Positions 9,736 through 19,728 of a stretch of DNA of 49,294 bases are shown in pieces (position 1 is the stretch's first letter; every line of letters begins with the position of its first letter). The notes under the pieces were generated by a model, which was given only the letters and a program-made list of their open reading frames with translations, did not search any database and was not told where the DNA came from. Both the position numbers and the translations under genes were made by a program. Source of the stretch: Syntrophales bacterium (lineage in GTDB: Bacteria; Desulfobacterota; Syntrophia; Syntrophales; JADFWA01); contig JAUSPI010000241.1 of NCBI GenBank assembly GCA_030655775.1, forward strand, positions 1-49,294, written 5' to 3'.

Positions 9736-9984
9736 GGGTTCAAGGGGTCGAGGATTCGAGTGAAAGGAAGAAAGACAACCCTGGATTACATCAGGATGCT
9801 TTACATATCTTATGGTTCTGTTTGCGAATTTGAAACATAGATATTATTAGCAGGGGATTTGGATTTAATTGAAAAAGGTGTATTGGGTAAATTAAAAAAA
9901 GATATAGCAGAAAGCTAAAGAATGTTAAAGGTGCCGATAAAGTCTCTAAAAAACAAACCCTTGAATCCTTGACCCCTGGAATCC
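9736..9984. repeat. Inverted repeat pair flanking about 200 bases
   Basis: The left arm 9736-9760 (ggggtcgaggattcgag core) and the right arm 9960-9984 (cttgaatccttgacccc core) are reverse complements over 25 positions with about four mismatches. The enclosed sequence has no recognisable gene. This could be a small non-autonomous element or two inverted copies of a cttgaatccttgacccc dispersed repeat. Confidence 0.55.
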
Positions 9985-10073
9985 TTGGACCCTCTTCTCC
10001 AACTAAATTGGAGAAGAACCAACTATTTAAGCTTTTTAAAATGATGCCAATCTTTATAAACACTCCCGAAGAA

Positions 10074-12038
10074 ATGGTGAAGGTGAGAGTAATAACACTT
10101 AAAGATTCTTCTGAAAGTGCTCTCAGACACTTACAGGAAATCGGACTCCTTCACATAGAAGAATCAAAGGAACCGGTCGATAAAGCAGCTATCGAAAGGG
10201 ATAAGAATCGGGTGGAAACGGCGCTCTCCTCTATTCACGATATCTTAAACTGCCTGACAGAAGAAATAGCAATACTTTTACCTGAAGATATCAAACTTCA
10301 TTCTCTCGATGAAATTACAGACCAGACAGACAAAATTCATGGTAGGTTTTCTAAACTCACCCGAAAAACCGCCCATTTAAAAGAGGAAATTGCAAATTTT
10401 GAAGAGCTTGATAAATATCTGGGTCCACTGGCACGCCACACAAATGTGCCTTTGAAGGATTTGCAATATTCCGGGACATATTTATTTACTAACGTCCTGG
10501 CCTTTTCTGAGGATGCTTATAAGGCATTTAGTGAGCGAGCCGGTCAGTATTTGTTCCAGCATGTTGCCGTTCCAGTCGAAGGTGAGGTGGCAGTTTATTT
10601 TGTAGCCGGAACTGAACATCGAAAGACAATAGAAACGCTCATTAAAAACATCGGTGCAGCAACTCTGAAGATACCGGACATGGAATTATCCCTGAGGGAG
10701 TTCATAAAAGAAATTGATGAAGCGATTCGCAGCCGGAAAAAGGATCGTGATGAATTTGAAAAAGAACTCCAGAAAATGATTAAGGAGAATTTAGACCAGA
10801 TTGTCTTATTCAGGGAAATACTCGCTGCGGAAAACGAGAGGTTGTCTATCCTCGAACAGGCATGGGAGGCACGGTACGTTACCTTTATCGAAGGCTGGAT
10901 ACCACAAATCAATGCTGACACAGTAACTACCGGTTTAAAAGAAACATCAGATTTTGCATTTGTTGATACGAAGAAACCCGATCCTGCGGACACGCCTCCA
11001 ACAAAGCTCCAAAATCCCCCAGGAATTCGACCATTCCAGATTATTGTAAGCCTTTTCAGTCTACCCAAATATGACGATTGGGATCCTACGCCCATCGTGG
11101 CTTATTTCTTTGCCTTCTTCTTTGGACTGATGCTCAATGATGTCGTATATGCCGTCGGCCTCATTTTACTGGCCAGATTTTTACTTTACAAACTTGCTGA
11201 TGATCCAACCTCCGAGGAATTTTATCTGTTTCGAAACGTTTTATACATTAGCGGCAGCTCAAGTCTCATATTTGGATTACTTTCCGGTACCTATCTTGGT
11301 GATTTCCTCAAAATGTTTTTCAACGTAGAGCTACAAAACATCGCCCTGGTGTCGCATGTGCACAAATACCTTTCGGATCCCATTTCATTTATTGTCCTTT
11401 CACTCATAATAGGGCTTGTTCATGTAAATTCGGCTCACATACTCTCTCTTATCAAAGGAGTAAAGGAAAAGAATAAGGGGTTAATACTGAGCAAGATCGG
11501 GCTTTTTATTTTACAAATTTTCGGTATTCCCTATATCTTTAATGCCCTGCTGCATGTAAAACTTATCCCGCTGAGTGCCGGAGCATATTCTGTCCTTATT
11601 TATCCCCTGTTCTTAGGTCTGACCTTAATTGTCATAGCCAGCTTCATGCAGATGGGCGGCCTGGGCGGAATTTTCTGGATTTTTGAACTAACTGGTATTA
11701 TGGGAGATATCATGTCATACTCAAGACTGGCAGGAGTGGGGCTTGCTACATTTTATCTTGCCTCATCTTTTAATCTTCTTTCAGATTGGGTTTCTTCCTC
11801 ACTGTCGAATTTGATACCCGGCATCGTTGGATTTATCATAGCGTTCGTTGTTGCTTTTATAATGCTTATTATTTTCCATGTTTTTAATTTGCTTCTTAGC
11901 AGCCTGGCTGCTTTCATACATTCACTGAGACTATGCTTCGTGGAATTCTTACTGAAATTCTATGAAGGGGGAGGGGGAAAATATGCCCCGTTTCATCTGA
12001 GACTCCGGAGGGAAGTATTGGTAGGTACAAAATCTTAA
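10074..12038 (+). CDS. ntpI: V/A-type ATP synthase subunit I (subunit a homologue)
   Basis: About 654 residues, the length of archaeal/bacterial subunit I. The soluble N-terminal half begins VKVRVITLKDSSESALRHLQEIGLLHIEES, which binds the peripheral stalks. The C-terminal half has about seven or eight membrane segments starting at PTPIVAYFFAFFFGLMLNDVVYAVG. The channel arginine is most likely in IMGDIMSYSRLAGVGLATF, the family's MSYxRL motif. An ATG at 9969 would run through repeat sequence; the ATG at 10074 (or the GTG next to it) matches the family start but lacks a strong ribosome site. First gene of the operon. Confidence 0.92.
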   Translation: MVKVRVITLKDSSESALRHLQEIGLLHIEESKEPVDKAAIERDKNRVETALSSIHDILNCLTEEIAILLPEDIKLHSLDEITDQTDKIHGRFSKLTRKTAHLKEEIANFEELDKYLGPLARHTNVPLKDLQYSGTYLFTNVLAFSEDAYKAFSERAGQYLFQHVAVPVEGEVAVYFVAGTEHRKTIETLIKNIGAATLKIPDMELSLREFIKEIDEAIRSRKKDRDEFEKELQKMIKENLDQIVLFREILAAENERLSILEQAWEARYVTFIEGWIPQINADTVTTGLKETSDFAFVDTKKPDPADTPPTKLQNPPGIRPFQIIVSLFSLPKYDDWDPTPIVAYFFAFFFGLMLNDVVYAVGLILLARFLLYKLADDPTSEEFYLFRNVLYISGSSSLIFGLLSGTYLGDFLKMFFNVELQNIALVSHVHKYLSDPISFIVLSLIIGLVHVNSAHILSLIKGVKEKNKGLILSKIGLFILQIFGIPYIFNALLHVKLIPLSAGAYSVLIYPLFLGLTLIVIASFMQMGGLGGIFWIFELTGIMGDIMSYSRLAGVGLATFYLASSFNLLSDWVSSSLSNLIPGIVGFIIAFVVAFIMLIIFHVFNLLLSSLAAFIHSLRLCFVEFLLKFYEGGGGKYAPFHLRLRREVLVGTKS

Positions 12039-12052
12039 AGTGAGGTGAAAAA

Positions 12053-12520
12053 ATGACTGAAATACAAGCCTTAGCTACACTTGGAGGTGCAATTGCATTA
12101 GCAGGAGGTCTGACAGGATCGGCAATAGGAATTGCCACAGCCGCATCTGCCGGGGTTGCTACTTTATCTGAAGAGCCCGGTCAGTTGAGAAATGTCATAG
12201 TACTGGCATCTCTACCGATGACACAAAGCTTTTATGGACTGATTATTCTCATTATTATTCTCACTGTGGTTGTTCCGAACCTGCCCGCATTCGGTGGTGC
12301 CGGAATTGCGGTGCTTGCCATCGGCGTTATAGGAGCATTTGCTGAAGCTTTCTCAGGGATATTCCAGGGATCTGTCTGCGCTGCGGGAATAGCCCTCCTG
12401 CCGAAGACAAAAGGACAAATATTAACTGCATCGATGATGTTGGCCGTGTTTGTAGAACTTATTGGTGTTCTGGGGTTGGTGTTCACCATCATGGCGCTGA
12501 ACATACTAAAGCTAATGTAA
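12053..12520 (+). CDS. ntpK: V/A-type ATP synthase subunit K (rotor c-ring), probable Na+ type
   Basis: A 155-residue duplicated-hairpin proteolipid with four membrane helices that forms the rotor ring. Only the second hairpin carries the ion-binding carboxylate, Glu135 in AVFVELIGVLG. Compared from memory with Enterococcus hirae NtpK, the Na+ ligands have counterparts: Leu54, Thr57 and Gln58 in LPMTQSFYG, Gln105 in IFQGSVCAAG, and Glu135. This suggests Na+ rather than H+ coupling, though that is an inference. GAGGTG precedes the ATG by 6 bases. It follows ntpI after 14 bases. Confidence 0.94.
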   Translation: MTEIQALATLGGAIALAGGLTGSAIGIATAASAGVATLSEEPGQLRNVIVLASLPMTQSFYGLIILIIILTVVVPNLPAFGGAGIAVLAIGVIGAFAEAFSGIFQGSVCAAGIALLPKTKGQILTASMMLAVFVELIGVLGLVFTIMALNILKLM

Positions 12521-12532
12521 TAAGATGCACGG

Positions 12533-13138
12533 GTGGATACTATGGAAACTGGCAAAATAAGGAAAGCTATTCTTGACAAGGCAAAAGAAGATGCCGACAA
12601 AATTATAAGCGACGCCAAGATTAAGGCGAAAGAAGCAATCGAAAAAGCTGAAGAACAAAAGGAACTAAGATTTGCGGAAGAAAAGAAGAAGGCCATATCA
12701 GAAGCCTATCGCGAGGCATCAAAGATCCTGGCGCAGGCTTCTCTGAAATATCGTCAGGTGAAATTGAAGGAAAAGGATGCTATTATCAATGAAATCATAA
12801 AAAGGGCAAAGGACGAACTGTCACAGGATATAAATGATAAGGAACTGTTTGTCCGTCTTATTCAAGAAGCAATCGATGCCTTAGAAACAGAAGATAAAGT
12901 CAGGCTTTTTGTTTCTCCTAAAGACCTTAACATTGTTCGGGAAGTTATTGAGGAGAATAGCAGATTAAAAGAAAAAATAACTGAAGTTAATGAAATCGAT
13001 TGTATGGGTGGGATTCTGATGGAGGCTATCGACGGTATGGTTAGTATCAATAATACATTCGATACCAGGCTGGAAATGTTGATGCCAAAAATTTTGCCCA
13101 AAATCGGTAAAAAACTCTTTGGAGTTGATGAAATTTGA
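12533..13138 (+). CDS. ntpE: V/A-type ATP synthase subunit E (peripheral stalk)
   Basis: About 200 residues. The N-terminal half is a long charged helix (AILDKAKEDADKIISDAKIKAKEAI...), which pairs with the H/G subunit as a right-handed coiled coil. The C-terminal globular domain includes GGILMEAIDGMVSINNTFDTRL, the segment that binds the head. The GTG at 12533 and the ATG at 12542 are both possible; the GGGTGG before the ATG could serve as a ribosome site. The stop codon overlaps the next start. Confidence 0.9.
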   Translation: MDTMETGKIRKAILDKAKEDADKIISDAKIKAKEAIEKAEEQKELRFAEEKKKAISEAYREASKILAQASLKYRQVKLKEKDAIINEIIKRAKDELSQDINDKELFVRLIQEAIDALETEDKVRLFVSPKDLNIVREVIEENSRLKEKITEVNEIDCMGGILMEAIDGMVSINNTFDTRLEMLMPKILPKIGKKLFGVDEI

Positions 13139-14169
13139 ACCTAATCAGCACCCGTTATGCATTTACATCAGCTTACCTCAAAGGTGAAGAATCCAGATGT
13201 GTTTCTGCTGACCACGTCGATTGGATGATGCAAAAATCGACCATGCAGGATGTCCTGGAAGTGATCGAAAATACCGATATTGGTGATTATCTCCGGGGGC
13301 AACCTATCAAAACTTTTGATGAAGCCGATGAATATCTGTGGAAATACCTTGGTGAATGTCTGAAGCGTCTTGAACGGTTCAAACCTCCTTCTGAAATCGT
13401 TCATCTGGCAGATGCATACATCAAAAAGTACGACATCCTGAACATTAAGATTGCCGTAAGAACGGTTTTAATGGAAAAGCCGGCTCCCATGGCACTGTTA
13501 GGAGTAATCTATAATCAGGGATATCTTGAGAAATTATTAAGCATTAAGAGCGTGGATGAAATCGCTGAAATTATTGTAATGTGCAACCTGGGTGATTATG
13601 CCTCCCTTATAAAGGATATTAAAGAGAAAGATGTTATATCTGAGGCCGAGATCAGACTGGACAGGATGTATTATGAAGGCCTGTTGAGCGCGCTGAGGAG
13701 GATAGATGACGGGCACTTGGTTACCAAAGCCGTGGGCATCATCATTGATCTGGAAAACCTTCAGATTGTTTTTCGATCCGTCCTCGGAGAAAAAGAATCT
13801 ATGGTTACTGAATTTGTTCTCGAGGGAGGATACGTGCTCTCGGCTAATACTGTCAGAGAGTTTCTCTCACTCAAAATGAGCGAAATAACAGGTAGACTGG
13901 AACATACAGAATATTATCAATTAGCCCAGGAAATTTCCAAAGGCTTTGAAAAAGACGGGAATATTACAATTATAAATAAACTAATAGATAAGCTTAAATT
14001 TCAATTATTAAAGGATTTGCTTTCGCCGAGAGTGCTATCCTCATCCAACATGTTATGGTACCTGATTTTGAAAGAATGGGAAATACGCAATGTAAGACTA
14101 ATTCTTAAGACCCTGGAAGATGGCATACCACCATCAGAAATTAAGGATTATCTGGTAATAGCATCATGA
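13135..14169 (+). CDS. ntpC: V/A-type ATP synthase subunit C (central stalk socket)
   Basis: A 344-residue AC39/V-type C subunit, which connects the rotor shaft (D/F) to the K ring. It starts with the typical N-terminus ISTRYAFTSAYLKGEESR. It continues with helical repeats such as VHLADAYIKKYDILNIKIAVRT and, at the C-terminus, EWEIRNVRLILKTLEDGIP, the family's N-x-R signature. Translation most likely begins at TTG 13135, which overlaps the ntpE stop (TTGA), with GGAG 10 bases upstream. It ends in an ATGA overlap with ntpF. Confidence 0.9.
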   Translation: MNLISTRYAFTSAYLKGEESRCVSADHVDWMMQKSTMQDVLEVIENTDIGDYLRGQPIKTFDEADEYLWKYLGECLKRLERFKPPSEIVHLADAYIKKYDILNIKIAVRTVLMEKPAPMALLGVIYNQGYLEKLLSIKSVDEIAEIIVMCNLGDYASLIKDIKEKDVISEAEIRLDRMYYEGLLSALRRIDDGHLVTKAVGIIIDLENLQIVFRSVLGEKESMVTEFVLEGGYVLSANTVREFLSLKMSEITGRLEHTEYYQLAQEISKGFEKDGNITIINKLIDKLKFQLLKDLLSPRVLSSSNMLWYLILKEWEIRNVRLILKTLEDGIPPSEIKDYLVIAS

Positions 14170-14519
14170 TATCACTGCAAAATTTAGATATCGCCGTTAT
14201 AGGAAATGAAGATCAGGTCATACTTATGCAGCTCGCCGGCGTTGAAAAGTATCGGGTAATAGAAGGTGAAAGCGACATTCGGGAAAAAGTGCGAGAAGCG
14301 TTAAGGGAATTCGTGAACGATACCTCGATCGGAATAATTATGATACCGGAAAACTTGAGGGATTACGTAGATGATATTCTGAAATATATCAGTGAAAGTA
14401 AGAAGATAACCCCTGTTATAATTGAAATTCCTTCAAAATTTACAACAGAAAAAGAAGATGTAAGAGAATTCTACAAATCTTACATGAAGAAGTTATTAGG
14501 ATTTTCAATAGAGATTTAG
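14166..14519 (+). CDS. ntpF: V/A-type ATP synthase subunit F
   Basis: A 117-residue subunit F of the rotor axle, with a Rossmann-like fold that binds subunit D and the catalytic head. It shows LDIAVIGNEDQVILMQLAGVE, then TSIGIIMIPENLRDYVDDIL, then TPVIIEIPSK. The ATG overlaps the ntpC stop by 4 bases, showing tight coupling. It is followed by ntpA after 23 bases. Confidence 0.9.
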   Translation: MISLQNLDIAVIGNEDQVILMQLAGVEKYRVIEGESDIREKVREALREFVNDTSIGIIMIPENLRDYVDDILKYISESKKITPVIIEIPSKFTTEKEDVREFYKSYMKKLLGFSIEI

Positions 14520-14542: not shown

Positions 14543-16294
14543 ATGGGTAAAATCTGGAAAGTCTCAGGACCCGTCGTAATCGCTGAAGACATGCGAGGAT
14601 CCAAGGTATACGAAGTTGTTGATGTGGGCGAGGCAAGGCTAACCGGAGAAATAATCGGACTTGAACAGGATAAGGCGGTTATCCAGGTCTATGAGGATAC
14701 CGTTGGGCTTCGCGTCGGAGAACCAGTAGAAGGAACCGGAGAGATATTGATGGTGGAGCTCGGCCCAGGTCTCGTCGGGAGCATCTTTGACGGTGTTCAA
14801 AGATCTCTTGTTACGATGATGGAAGATATCGGTGATTTCCTTGAAAGAGGGGCACGCACATTCCCTCTTGACCGGGACAAAAAATGGCATTTTACACCTT
14901 CAGTCAAAGCTGGTGATCAGGTCGAAGAAGGTGATATTATCGGTACAGTTCCCGAAACGGGGCTCGTAGAACACAGAATAATGATACCGATAGGTATTAA
15001 GGGCAAACTGCTGGAGATATCTGAAGGCGACTACACGGTAGAAGAGCCGGTTGCAGTTGTAGAACATGACGGAGAAAGAAAAAATATCACACTTATGCAA
15101 CGATGGCCGGCAAGGAAACCAAGACTCTACAAACAGAGATTGAATCCCGAGAATTTGCTCGTTACAGGAACCAGAATTATAGATTACATCTTCCCCCTCG
15201 CATTAGGGGGCAAGGCGGCCATACCGGGCGGCTTCGGTACCGGCAAGACAGTTACACTGCAGCAGATGGCAAGATGGGCACAAACACAGTTAAATATCTA
15301 TGTAGGTTGCGGTGAACGGGGAAACGAGATGGCGGACGTCCTCCATAGCTTCAAGCAGCTAAAGGACCCCAATACAGGCAAGTTATTGCAGGAAAAAGAA
15401 ATATTTATTGCCAACACGTCCAACATGCCTGTTGTGGCAAGGGAAATAAGTATTTTCATAGGCATTACCTTAGCTGAATATTACAGAGACATGGGGTACG
15501 ATATTCTCCTCGTTGCAGATTCAACTTCGCGGTGGGCTGAGGCAATGAGAGAGATTGGGGCAAGACTCGAAGAAACACCCGGTGAAGAAGGTTTCCCCAC
15601 ATATCTCGGTTCAAGACTGGCCTCATTTTATGAAAGATCCGGAAGGGTTGAGTGTAAGGGAAGTCCTTTAAGGAATGGATCGGTTACTGTAATCGGGGCA
15701 GTAAGTCCTCCTGGGGCTGACTTCAGCGAACCCGTTACTCAAAGTACCCTCAGGATCGTTGAAGCACTCTATTCACTTGATGTTGCTCTGGCAAATAAAC
15801 GGCATTTCCCAACGATAAGCTGGCTCACCAGCTACAGTCTCTATGCAGATGCAACGAACCGTTGGTGGAGCGCTATCAGTCCTGAGTGGTCAGATACAAG
15901 GGATATGACACTCAAAATACTTCAGAAAGAGGCAGAACTGGAAGAGATCGTGCGGCTTGTTGGCCCGGAGTCGTTACCTGAAGATGACAAGTTAATCCTT
16001 CTTGCCGCGAGGATGATAAGGGAAGACTTCCTTATGCAGAGTGCCTACCATCCGGTTGATAACTATACGACCCCCCAAAGGGCCCATCTGATGCTGAGCA
16101 CGATTATGAAGTTTTACGAATTAGCCCGGGAAATGTCTGTATCGGGTACGTTAGTGAGCGATATCGCCTCGTCAAAAACATTACAAAGAATATCCCGAAT
16201 GAAGGATGTCCCAAATGAGGATTTTGATAAATATGTCCACGGCATATGGTCTGAGATAGAAGAAAGTACGGAGGTTCAAGAAGGAGAGATATGA
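14543..16294 (+). CDS. ntpA: V/A-type ATP synthase catalytic subunit A
   Basis: The 583-residue nucleotide-hydrolysing or synthesising subunit. The beta-barrel start GKIWKVSGPVVIAEDM is followed by the V-type-specific insert (DKKWHFTPSVKAGDQVEEGDI...). The P-loop GGFGTGKT is at residues 229-236; most archaeal and eukaryotic enzymes read GPFGSGKT here, so this is the G-G-F-G-T variant. GCGERGNEMADVL, the Walker B region DILLVADSTSRWAEAMREI and FPTYLGSRLASFYERSGRV also match. It overlaps ntpB by 4 bases. Confidence 0.97.
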   Translation: MGKIWKVSGPVVIAEDMRGSKVYEVVDVGEARLTGEIIGLEQDKAVIQVYEDTVGLRVGEPVEGTGEILMVELGPGLVGSIFDGVQRSLVTMMEDIGDFLERGARTFPLDRDKKWHFTPSVKAGDQVEEGDIIGTVPETGLVEHRIMIPIGIKGKLLEISEGDYTVEEPVAVVEHDGERKNITLMQRWPARKPRLYKQRLNPENLLVTGTRIIDYIFPLALGGKAAIPGGFGTGKTVTLQQMARWAQTQLNIYVGCGERGNEMADVLHSFKQLKDPNTGKLLQEKEIFIANTSNMPVVAREISIFIGITLAEYYRDMGYDILLVADSTSRWAEAMREIGARLEETPGEEGFPTYLGSRLASFYERSGRVECKGSPLRNGSVTVIGAVSPPGADFSEPVTQSTLRIVEALYSLDVALANKRHFPTISWLTSYSLYADATNRWWSAISPEWSDTRDMTLKILQKEAELEEIVRLVGPESLPEDDKLILLAARMIREDFLMQSAYHPVDNYTTPQRAHLMLSTIMKFYELAREMSVSGTLVSDIASSKTLQRISRMKDVPNEDFDKYVHGIWSEIEESTEVQEGEI

Positions 16295-17697
16295 TGATGG
16301 AATCCCTGCAACTATTTACAAGGGAGACAAAAGCGATAAGCACTGCGAGAAGGTCACTCCTTATAATTGAGAGTATTCCCGGCATCAGATACAACGAAAT
16401 TGTCGATGTTCAGTTAGGCACCGGTGAGAAGAGAAGTGGACAGGTTATCGAGGTAGGCAAGAAAATGACGGTAGTCCAGGTATTTGGCGGCGTCAGCGAG
16501 GTCGACCTTTTGAAAAGCACGATAATATACAAGGGTGAAACCCTGAAACTGCCCGTCTCTATCGACATACTGGGAAGGATATTCGATGGAAGCGGGAGTC
16601 CCATAGATGGTGGCCCCCCTATTGTAGCAGAGGATTATATTGACATTAACGGGGTACCTATAAATCCAGCATCCCGGCAGCCGCCCTCAGAATTCATCGA
16701 AACAGGTATTTCCGCTATTGACGGTCTTAACGTTCTTGTCAGGGGCCAGAAATTGCCGATTTTCAGTGGATCAGGCCTGCCCCATAATAAGATCGCAGCC
16801 CAGATAGTAAGGCAGGCTGCTTTAAAAGGGGAAACGGAAGATTTTGTAACTGTCTTTGCAGCAATAGGAGTCAGCTATGACGACGCCGCCTATTTTATTT
16901 CCAACCTTGAAGAGACCGGAGCACTCAGCAAGGCTGTTGGATTCATCAACACGGCATCATCTCCGGTAATCGAGCGATTATCGACACCTCGTCTGGCCTT
17001 AACCGCAGCCGAATATCTCGCATGGGAACATGGTCTGCACGTGCTAGTCATACTCACCGACATCACGAATTACTGTGATGCGCTTCGAGAGCTTGCTGCA
17101 ATGAGAGGGGAGATACCCAGCAGAAGGGGCTATCCGGGATATATGTATACAGACCTTTCCTCTATGTATGAGAGGGCTGGGAGAATCACCGGGAAAGAAG
17201 GGTCGGTGACGATCTTGCCCATTTTGACCATGCCCGACGATGATATTACCCATCCCATACCTGATCTTACAGGATACATCACTGAAGGGCAGATTGTTCT
17301 TTCGAGAGCTCTTGAGAGAAAGAGAATATATCCGCCAATAGATATATTTTTGTCTCTTTCCAGAATGATGCGTGAGGGAATCGGGGAGGGAAAAACGAGA
17401 GAAGACCATAACAATGTATTTATGCAGGCATACGCAGTGTACGCAGAGGGGAACTATCTGAGAGAAATCTCAACTGTTATCGGTACTGAAGCCTTAAGCG
17501 ACAGGGATAAAATCTACCTTGCTGCTGCGGACAGATTTGAACAGGAATATATTTCCCAGAGTGAGCATGAAAGAAGAACAGTTGAGGGAACTCTGGAATT
17601 AGCATGGAAAATCTTTTCGATGATTCCTGTTGAGGATCTGAAATTGATAAGTGAAGAGTTCATCAAAAAATATCTGCCAGAAACATCGAATCCTTGA
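16291..17697 (+). CDS. ntpB: V/A-type ATP synthase regulatory subunit B
   Basis: The 468-residue non-catalytic partner of subunit A, alternating with it in the A3B3 head. It shows the B-type replacement of the P-loop, FSGSGLPHNKIAAQIVRQA, and FVTVFAAIGVSYDDAAYF. The arginine-finger region GRITGKEGSVTILPILTMPDDDITHPIPDLTGYITEGQI follows. Its N-terminus overlaps the ntpA stop. A 113-base gap containing an expanded palindrome separates it from ntpD, the only sizeable break among the core subunits. Confidence 0.97.
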   Translation: MMMESLQLFTRETKAISTARRSLLIIESIPGIRYNEIVDVQLGTGEKRSGQVIEVGKKMTVVQVFGGVSEVDLLKSTIIYKGETLKLPVSIDILGRIFDGSGSPIDGGPPIVAEDYIDINGVPINPASRQPPSEFIETGISAIDGLNVLVRGQKLPIFSGSGLPHNKIAAQIVRQAALKGETEDFVTVFAAIGVSYDDAAYFISNLEETGALSKAVGFINTASSPVIERLSTPRLALTAAEYLAWEHGLHVLVILTDITNYCDALRELAAMRGEIPSRRGYPGYMYTDLSSMYERAGRITGKEGSVTILPILTMPDDDITHPIPDLTGYITEGQIVLSRALERKRIYPPIDIFLSLSRMMREGIGEGKTREDHNNVFMQAYAVYAEGNYLREISTVIGTEALSDRDKIYLAAADRFEQEYISQSEHERRTVEGTLELAWKIFSMIPVEDLKLISEEFIKKYLPETSNP

Positions 17698-17708
17698 AGC
17701 CGAACTCT

Positions 17709-17771
17709 GGTAGGTGGCATGGACAAACCATGTGCCGAATTTGCTTCGGTATTGTTTGTCCGTGCATCAAA
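17709..17771. repeat. Expanded dispersed palindrome between ntpB and ntpD
   Basis: ggtggcatggacaaac (17713-17728) and gtttgtccgtgca (17753-17765) are the two arms of the ggacaaac/gtttgtcc family seen at 2353, 3577 and 4821. Here the 2-base centre is replaced by about 24 bases containing their own small hairpin, ccgaatttgcttcgg. It lies inside an essential operon without disrupting a gene. Confidence 0.75.
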
Positions 17772-17810
17772 TTCGGTGGTTAGAAAAACTTCACCTTACT
17801 AAGGTAAGCC

Positions 17811-18461
17811 ATGGCTAAAAAAATACAGGTTACAAGACCAACCAAGATTGAGCTTGCACGTCTCAAGCACCGGCTTAAGCTGGCTACAAGGATCCATAAG
17901 ATTGTCAAGGACAGACTTTCCATATTGATCATGGAGCTGCTTCAGACAGTCAGAGAATGCGCATCGGTTAAAGATAGACTCCTCACAGAATTTTCAGAAG
18001 CTTACAGGTCATTGTCTATAACTGCAGGGTATCATGGATACGTGTCTCTGAAAAAGGAACTCCTGGTATCCGAAATGGCCTTTAAGGTGAACGCCGGAAC
18101 AAGGAATGTCGCGGGGGTTAGAATACCATTTTTCGAAATTGAGAAAGCGGATGAAATGAAAGCAGAGACGAAGAACATGGCAGATACTTCCTCATTTCTG
18201 GATCACAGCACAGAACTTTCCCAAAAATGCCTGAAGACCATTATCGAACTTGCTGAACTTCAAAAATCCCTGGAACTTTTAGGAATGGAGATCAACAAGG
18301 TAAAAAGAATAAACAATGCCCTGGAGCATGTCGTAGTCCCGGGTCTCGATATGACCATAAAATATTTAACCATGAAATTTGAAGAGAGAGACAGGGAAGA
18401 GGCTGCTCGTCTCAAACATGTAAAGTTACTTATCGAACAGAGAGAAGCCTATGCCTACTGA
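17811..18461 (+). CDS. ntpD: V/A-type ATP synthase subunit D (rotor shaft)
   Basis: A 216-residue coiled-coil rotor shaft. It begins with the conserved PTKIELARLKHRLKLATRIHKIVKDR and contains the mid-protein VRIPFFE element. The long C-terminal helix includes INKVKRINNALEHVVVPGL, the family's R-R-x-N-A-L-E signature in the form KRINNALE. The ATG at 17811 has AAGGTAAG nearby. It overlaps the downstream DUF61 gene by 11 bases. Confidence 0.94.
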   Translation: MAKKIQVTRPTKIELARLKHRLKLATRIHKIVKDRLSILIMELLQTVRECASVKDRLLTEFSEAYRSLSITAGYHGYVSLKKELLVSEMAFKVNAGTRNVAGVRIPFFEIEKADEMKAETKNMADTSSFLDHSTELSQKCLKTIIELAELQKSLELLGMEINKVKRINNALEHVVVPGLDMTIKYLTMKFEERDREEAARLKHVKLLIEQREAYAY

Positions 18462-18885
18462 TCAATTTCCCGACGGATTCGTTGCAGGATACCTGAAAGA
18501 CGAATTCAAAGCTTTAAATGCACAGATCCCGCGTAAACGGAAATCGCTCACCGAACTCCTGAAGGAAGAACATCCTCATGTGGTATGTAACGACGGGAGC
18601 GCACATTTTTTTAAGAAAAAGGAACTTGAGTATCTTTCGCAAATGCTATACGAGAATGAGCAAACTTCTCTATTACTTCCAATAATTATAGAAATTACTT
18701 CGGATCAAGGCTGGGTGACCGTACGATCAAAAGGGGAAACAGAAGCAAAGATCTTTTCGAAGATTCTTGACATGAATGTGGTCTGCAAAGATGGTCTAAT
18801 AACAATATTTAGACCTCAGTTAAACATAGTTAGAAAGGTGTTAAAAACAACTACACAGTATGTCTTTCTTTTTAAAAATCCCTGA
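18451..18885 (+). CDS. DUF61/UPF0216 family protein, archaeal type
   Basis: A 144-residue protein that I match from memory to DUF61 (UPF0216), a family known mainly from archaea and of unknown function. Matching segments, in order: IPRKRKSLTELLKEE (26-40), CNDGSAHFFKKKELEYL (46-62), LPIIIEI (76-82), FRPQLNIVRK (120-129) and TTTQYVF (133-139). It starts 11 bases inside ntpD, so it is co-translated with the rotor shaft. It has no membrane segment. Its presence in a bacterial V/A-ATPase operon suggests it was acquired with the operon or aids its assembly; both are inferences. Confidence 0.8.
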   Translation: MPTDQFPDGFVAGYLKDEFKALNAQIPRKRKSLTELLKEEHPHVVCNDGSAHFFKKKELEYLSQMLYENEQTSLLLPIIIEITSDQGWVTVRSKGETEAKIFSKILDMNVVCKDGLITIFRPQLNIVRKVLKTTTQYVFLFKNP

Positions 18886-18947: not shown

Positions 18948-19391
18948 ATGAAAGCGTTTGCAGACAAGCTGATAGATATTACAGAAAGTCATGCAGAGGA
19001 GATTTCCAGAGAATGGTGCAAAGCTGTAAGGAAAAATCCCCGGACAAAATCATACCATTCCATGTTAGCGGAAGAATGTTTCCCCCATGCTTTGGATTTT
19101 TACAGGAATCTGAGGATAATATACTTTAGCGAAAAACCGTACAAGGAAGTGTGTGACTTCTTTTCAAAATACGCTGAAGAGAGGTACGATGAAGGAATTC
19201 CCCTGCAAGAAGCTGCGTACGCCATTGTTATGATGAGGAGGCATATGTGGCTTTATGCCGAATTCCAGGCGCTCTTTCTTACACCCGTTGATCACCATCA
19301 GGCAATAGCAACTATTAATAGAACAATTCGTGTATTCGATCAGGGCCTGTATTGTATCATCCAAAAATATGATGAAATGAACAAACAATAG
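18948..19391 (+). CDS. RsbRD_N-like sensory domain protein
   Basis: A 147-residue, single-domain, all-helical protein resembling the RsbRD_N domain found at the N-terminus of RsbR paralogues and some kinases. Visible landmarks are EEISREWCKAVRKNPRTKSYHSM, FPHALDFYRNL, and EGIPLQEAAYAIVMMRRHMW, the last being the family's helix before the fold ends. There is no STAS, kinase or DNA-binding domain, so it could act only by binding a partner. A strong AAAGGAG site lies 7 bases before the ATG. It lies between ntpD/DUF61 and the stalk subunit gene, suggesting regulation of the ATPase (inference). Confidence 0.75.
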   Translation: MKAFADKLIDITESHAEEISREWCKAVRKNPRTKSYHSMLAEECFPHALDFYRNLRIIYFSEKPYKEVCDFFSKYAEERYDEGIPLQEAAYAIVMMRRHMWLYAEFQALFLTPVDHHQAIATINRTIRVFDQGLYCIIQKYDEMNKQ

Positions 19392-19407: not shown

Positions 19408-19728
19408 ATGCCTGAAGAAATGCAAACTACGATAAGAGAGATTGAAAGCGAGGCTGAGAAGCTCCTCGATGAAGCCAGGGTTAAAGCCAGACAAATACTG
19501 GAAGATGCTAAAAAAAAGGTGAATACAATATTGTCTTCAGAACTCCCTATGGATGAAATTAGGGCGGAGCAGAATAAAATCATCAGTGCGGCCAACGAAG
19601 AAGCAGATAGACAAATTGAGGATTCAAAGAAGAAGGCTTTACAGCTCAAGGCGGATGCACAAGCGAAGGTAGATGAGACAGTAAAGTTGATAGTAAATTA
19701 CATCAAAGGGGATTCGTTAAAAATATAA
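19408..19728 (+). CDS. ntpH: V/A-type ATP synthase subunit H/G (peripheral stalk coiled coil)
   Basis: A 106-residue, almost wholly helical protein with the AhaH/NtpG pattern: IREIESEAEKLLDEARVKARQILEDAKKK, then a hinge near SSELPMDEI, then a second helix. It pairs with subunit E to form the peripheral stalk. In archaea and Thermus the gene stands first in the operon; here it is near the end, after DUF61 and the RsbRD_N-like gene. It could be mistaken for a generic coiled-coil protein, but length, composition and context favour H/G. Confidence 0.85.
   Translation: MPEEMQTTIREIESEAEKLLDEARVKARQILEDAKKKVNTILSSELPMDEIRAEQNKIISAANEEADRQIEDSKKKALQLKADAQAKVDETVKLIVNYIKGDSLKI

Follow-up and report, generated by a model that had tools for sequence, protein, structure and literature searches.

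The window, by which we mean the whole 49,294-nucleotide stretch of DNA analyzed here, comes from a member of the Syntrophales (phylum Desulfobacterota) and contains a V/A-type ATPase operon in which the genes for subunits A, B, C, D, E, F, I and K all lie within one run. The gene order is ntpI-K-E-C-F-A-B-D-DUF61, followed by a gene for an RsbR-N/HisK_N-like protein of 147 amino acids and then by one for an AhaH/NtpG-like coiled coil. The features of the operon are as follows.

9969..12038, + strand: ntpI, membrane stator subunit a/I (PF01496, E 3.9e-24; NF004428, E 3.6e-92)
12053..12520, + strand: ntpK, rotor-ring subunit (PF00137; alignment with 2bl2)
12533..13138, + strand: ntpE, peripheral stalk (PF01991, E 2.6e-22)
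13135..14169, + strand: ntpC, subunit C/d, the joint between shaft and ring (PF01992, E 3e-43)
14166..14519, + strand: ntpF, rotor subunit F (PF01990, E 5.1e-18)
14543..16294, + strand: ntpA, catalytic subunit (open reading frame and operon position; homologues equally placed in all long loci)
16291..17697, + strand: ntpB, non-catalytic subunit (573 bits to the Methanosarcina mazei B subunit, 2c61)
17811..18461, + strand: ntpD, subunit D, the central rotor shaft (PF01813, ATP-synt_D, E 9.4e-45)
18451..18461, + strand: overlap of ntpD and DUF61, 11 bases, ATGCCTACTGA
18451..18885, + strand: DUF61 (UPF0216) protein (PF01886, NF003153, AlphaFold2 model against 5vfk, dN/dS)
18948..19391, + strand: RsbR-N-like protein, small and stand-alone, predicted to fold as a globin (HisK_N/RsbRD_N, best member E ~2e-5)
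19408..19728, + strand: NtpG/AhaH-like coiled-coil peripheral-stalk subunit (TIGR02926 AhaH, E 1.2e-5, below cut-off; PF16999, 0.0096)

The true start of ntpI is probably internal to the open reading frame listed. Both the subunit set and the I-K-E-C-F-A-B-D gene order are those of the archaeal and Thermus-type A/V-ATPase operons (Methanosarcina aha, Thermus), from which the window's operon differs by the extra DUF61 gene after D. The 11-base overlap between ntpD and DUF61, which a preliminary description of this DNA had pointed out, recurs as a spacing of -11 in every Desulfobacterota locus in which we read both genes, and its arrangement suggests that it is likely a site of translational coupling. 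The gap between ntpB and ntpD (17698-17810) holds a strong hairpin with 15-nucleotide arms at 17717-17731 and 17751-17765 (folding z -4.3), present as a single copy in the window; the gap is shorter in relatives.

The DUF61 reading frame encodes 144 amino acids, and the reverse strand of the same interval is interrupted by stops throughout. Its assignment to DUF61, initially proposed from family features, was borne out by profile searches: PF01886 matches with E 2.7e-35 and 121.7 bits (cut-off 27) over profile positions 3-127 of 127, and the NCBIfam equivalog NF003153 (PRK04115) scores 132.5 bits (cut-off 114). PF01886 also matches all 34 of the bacterial homologues we collected, and the window's own genome carries one copy. 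Given that dN/dS ranges from 0.05 to 0.30 in nine close pairs, the protein is under purifying selection and the reading frame is far beyond chance. An AlphaFold2 model built from the 34 native sequences (pLDDT 84.8, pTM 0.79) had a single significant Foldseek match in the PDB, 5vfk (E 1e-7, TM 0.68/0.67, rmsd 3.3), the NMR structure of the archaeal DUF61 protein SSO0941, and the window protein is therefore predicted to have the fold of the solved archaeal member. Sequence searches of the PDB, with the single sequence or with a profile, returned nothing real, and the 34-member bacterial profile misses Sulfolobus SSO0941 by sequence. We found no match to the model in a viral fold library at E <= 0.001, no DUF61 relatives in viral contigs, and only chance-level matches by tblastn against plasmids.

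The window protein is thus like the DUF61/UPF0216/COG2083 family in sequence, above curated cut-offs, and in fold, but it differs from this mainly archaeal family in its bacterial host and in a gene tied to a V/A-ATPase operon. We know of no function for any member. A literature search for DUF61, UPF0216 or PF01886, and for MJ1224 and SSO0941, yielded, among the papers searched, none naming them, and COG2083 appeared as one table entry; the association with the ATPase is therefore probably undescribed, although automated databases may show it.

To gauge how tightly DUF61 is linked to ntpD, we rely on HMM surveys of genomes, many of which are fragmented MAGs. Among 60 genomes of the order, the window's included, seven carry DUF61, and in all seven ntpD lies directly before it with the 11-base overlap. 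Across the phylum, DUF61 is present in 8 of 395 Desulfobacterota genomes, six times beside ntpD and twice as a divergent, solitary gene. In the Dehalococcoidia (Chloroflexota), 23 of 245 genomes have DUF61 and 23 of 23 have ntpD directly upstream; ntpD occurs in 25 of the 245, and none of the 220 ntpD-less genomes has DUF61. In a survey of 400 Chloroflexota genomes, DUF61 turned up only in members of this Dehalococcoidia set. We had reached the Dehalococcoidia, as the class representing the second phylum, through a scan of genome contigs: a single-sequence scan found no relatives, and an alignment scan over one genome per species (84,980) did, with 34 DUF61 loci and a V/A-ATPase operon wherever the contig was long enough. 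The scan patterns were built from ATPase-linked members, and we therefore treat the HMM surveys alone as unbiased. The earlier proposal that DUF61 is fixed beside a V/A-ATPase, for which a genome survey for DUF61 next to ntpD homologues had been suggested as a check, holds for Desulfobacterota and Dehalococcoidia alike; random placement in relatives, the outcome that it had set against this, was not seen, with the exception of the two solitary genes.

These two, the sole exceptions to the linkage in the surveys done, encode proteins of 131 amino acids in other Desulfobacterota (L083, 1690-2085; L084, 7378-7773) and fall below the NF003153 cut-off at 29.8 and 22.1 bits. Judging from the translations, the neighbor is presumably an endonuclease V gene in one and rlmH in the other. 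We also considered whether genome G449 might hold a decayed operon in which DUF61 had outlived the ATPase. We rejected this, since its ntpB was found on contig C48 (71% identical), which closes with the 5' end of ntpD, and the 3' end of ntpD lies just before DUF61 on contig C340; with the two halves of ntpD so divided, the locus is split or badly assembled. Two cases of ntpD without a visible DUF61 inside the clade described below (G054, and contig C41 of G450) likewise proved to be contig ends. Separately, one Chloroflexota MAG has ntpD split over two contigs (L103, 944-1078; L102, 1-129) with unrelated reading frames beside each half, which reflects either an insertion or an assembly chimera.

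Fisher p-values computed over genomes overstate the evidence for linkage, because a single ATPase clade is involved and the genomes are not independent; one event may lie behind every case of linkage. A better argument than the genome counts is that DUF61 has held its position while other features of the operon changed. The RsbR-N-like gene is absent or has moved, and in the Dehalococcoidia ntpG stands before ntpI and the spacing between D and DUF61 is positive (with gene starts chosen mechanically) rather than -11, and yet DUF61 still follows ntpD. This position is kept across two phyla whose ntpD products are 57-60% identical.

We asked which ATPases carry DUF61 by means of a B-subunit tree with 84 sequences. 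The DUF61-type ones, 45 in all and two of them assigned by contig ends, are separated from the rest by a single branch (SH-aLRT 100, length 1.19), and DUF61 is thus restricted to one V/A-ATPase clade. Subunit D exceeds its cut-off in about 98 of 395 Desulfobacterota genomes, and ATPase-linked DUF61 occurs in six. Given that most V/A-ATPases work without it, DUF61 is not a general V/A-ATPase factor. The Syntrophales ATPases outside the clade have D subunits about 24-31% identical, where tblastn aligned them, and none has DUF61; they include a second ATPase encoded in the window's genome. The window's genome itself contains a second, distant subunit D (G000, C249:686-1255) and a fragment of a third (C213:64204-64362), both without DUF61 since the genome's only copy is the one in the window. 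The trees of DUF61 and ntpD agree in their main clades, with a Mantel r of 0.71 overall (0.92 in Chloroflexota and 0.68 in Desulfobacterota). A mirror-tree test that controlled for the other subunits gave 0.56 for E versus 0.24 for D, and so no clear answer as to a partner subunit; DUF61 evolves at a rate similar to that of E, I and F, which are peripheral subunits.

DUF61 is known mainly from archaea (in our 14 control genomes it was found in two, Methanocaldococcus jannaschii and Sulfolobus acidocaldarius), and the preliminary description had raised transfer of the operon from an archaeon. The ATPase as such does not seem to be a recent archaeal arrival: the window's B subunit shares 57% identity with the Methanosarcina mazei one and 55-58% with several bacterial types that lack DUF61, and M. 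mazei, the sole archaeal sequence in the tree, falls on the other side of it, with the window-type B subunits forming a clade apart from M. mazei and from the other bacterial types. On the comparison with this one archaeal B subunit, transfer of the whole operon is not supported. The DUF61 gene taken alone may well have come from an archaeon. The simplest account would be that an ATPase lineage gained DUF61 once, and that spread between two bacterial phyla, or inheritance within them, came afterwards. Other Desulfobacterota V/A-ATPases without DUF61 (L145-L149, families f24 and f54) have B subunits nearest to M. mazei, 67% identical for L148, and are better candidates for archaeal transfer than the window's operon.

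What is established for DUF61 is its family, its predicted fold, purifying selection, its position behind ntpD in two phyla and its confinement to one ATPase clade. Of the roles that could go with these observations, we consider it most likely, at about even chances, that DUF61 is a dedicated accessory factor of one bacterial V/A-ATPase lineage, with a part in the assembly or regulation of the head and rotor. The more specific proposal that it is a previously unrecognized bacterial V/A-ATPase factor that partners the rotor shaft to assemble or control the enzyme is plausible but falls somewhat short of that. We infer a likely assembly or regulatory role, a putative contact between DUF61 and the ATPase, and D as the candidate partner. 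DUF61 would be synthesized from the ATPase operon immediately behind subunit D, probably by translational coupling, and if translation is coupled in this way the two proteins would arise at a constant ratio. DUF61 would then help to assemble or regulate the A, B, D and F subunits of the soluble head and rotor; for example, it could hold D or the D-F shaft until insertion, or it could stay on the complex and limit idle ATP hydrolysis. The kind of role proposed resembles that of the ATPase assembly or inhibitor factors AtpZ/AtpI, the Paracoccus zeta subunit, IF1 and VMA21, which are also small accessory proteins, although they serve another type of ATPase and no sequence or fold likeness to DUF61 was seen. 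The anaerobe groups that bear DUF61 are thought to live near the thermodynamic limit, where wasted ATP or ion leakage matters.

Alternatively, DUF61 could be an RNA-binding or RNP-associated protein recruited to regulate the mRNA or translation of the ATPase operon, rather than the protein complex. We rank this second, though as unlikely. The closest solved structure is that of SSO0941, whose neighbors SSO0939 and SSO0940 we take to be Nop5 and fibrillarin of box C/D RNPs; such a neighborhood would count against an ATPase role and point to RNA work, and because SSO0941 would then sit in an RNA context, we keep the explanation. The window protein is basic (pI 8.5), but the median over the bacterial set is only 7.7, and the likeness of the fold to aIF1/YciH (E 0.2-0.4) is weak and below significance. 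The hairpin between ntpB and ntpD is strong, but it is found in the window only, the corresponding gaps of other operons being short, and no RNA-binding motif was found in DUF61.

It is similarly improbable, and in our ranking third, that DUF61 is a passenger with a separate housekeeping function, inserted once after ntpD and carried along by vertical descent and horizontal transfer. Given that the DUF61 ATPases form one clade, one insertion event is enough, and two bacteria have kept a divergent solitary copy. However, a passenger would hardly be expected to hold a constant position over two phyla while neighboring genes moved or vanished, to be missing from all of the Dehalococcoidia without the ATPase, or to be under purifying selection. 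Last, and very unlikely, DUF61 might be a permanent, stoichiometric part of the finished complex, comparable to small subunits confined to particular lineages, rather than a transient factor. The one copy per operon directly after D, the mirrored DUF61 and ntpD trees and the rate of change like that of E, I and F would allow this, but searches of the PDB by sequence and by Foldseek found no likeness of DUF61 to any known ATPase subunit.

The gene link to the ATPase, found in two phyla, in one clade and after the rotor-shaft gene, makes the function of the family directly testable. If the accessory role that we favor is correct, it would give a first functional handle on an archaeal protein family and bacterial V/A-ATPases a dedicated accessory protein.

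The rotor ring offers a clue as to which ion this ATPase lineage moves. Although overall similarity to the Enterococcus hirae NtpK (2bl2) is low (E 6.7e-10), the window's NtpK keeps the LPxTQxxYG motif, the Q of GIxQGxVxAAG and a VE pair in the final helix, and with them the positions L, T, Q, Y, Q and E, which we take to be the Na+ ligands of the E. hirae Na+-V-ATPase. Because these residues are kept, Na+ coupling is probable for the DUF61-type ATPases. To our knowledge, the E. hirae enzyme has no DUF61.

The RsbR-N-like gene follows DUF61 in the Syntrophales-type operons. The AlphaFold2 model of its product (pLDDT 88.8) is similar to globin sensor domains and to the RsbR N-domain, with TM ~0.7 and Foldseek E values of 0.004 or weaker. 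Relatives of this protein, 37-39% identical, also occur after ntpD in V-ATPase operons of another family that lack DUF61 (L055 and L057), and the protein may be a V-ATPase-associated sensor.
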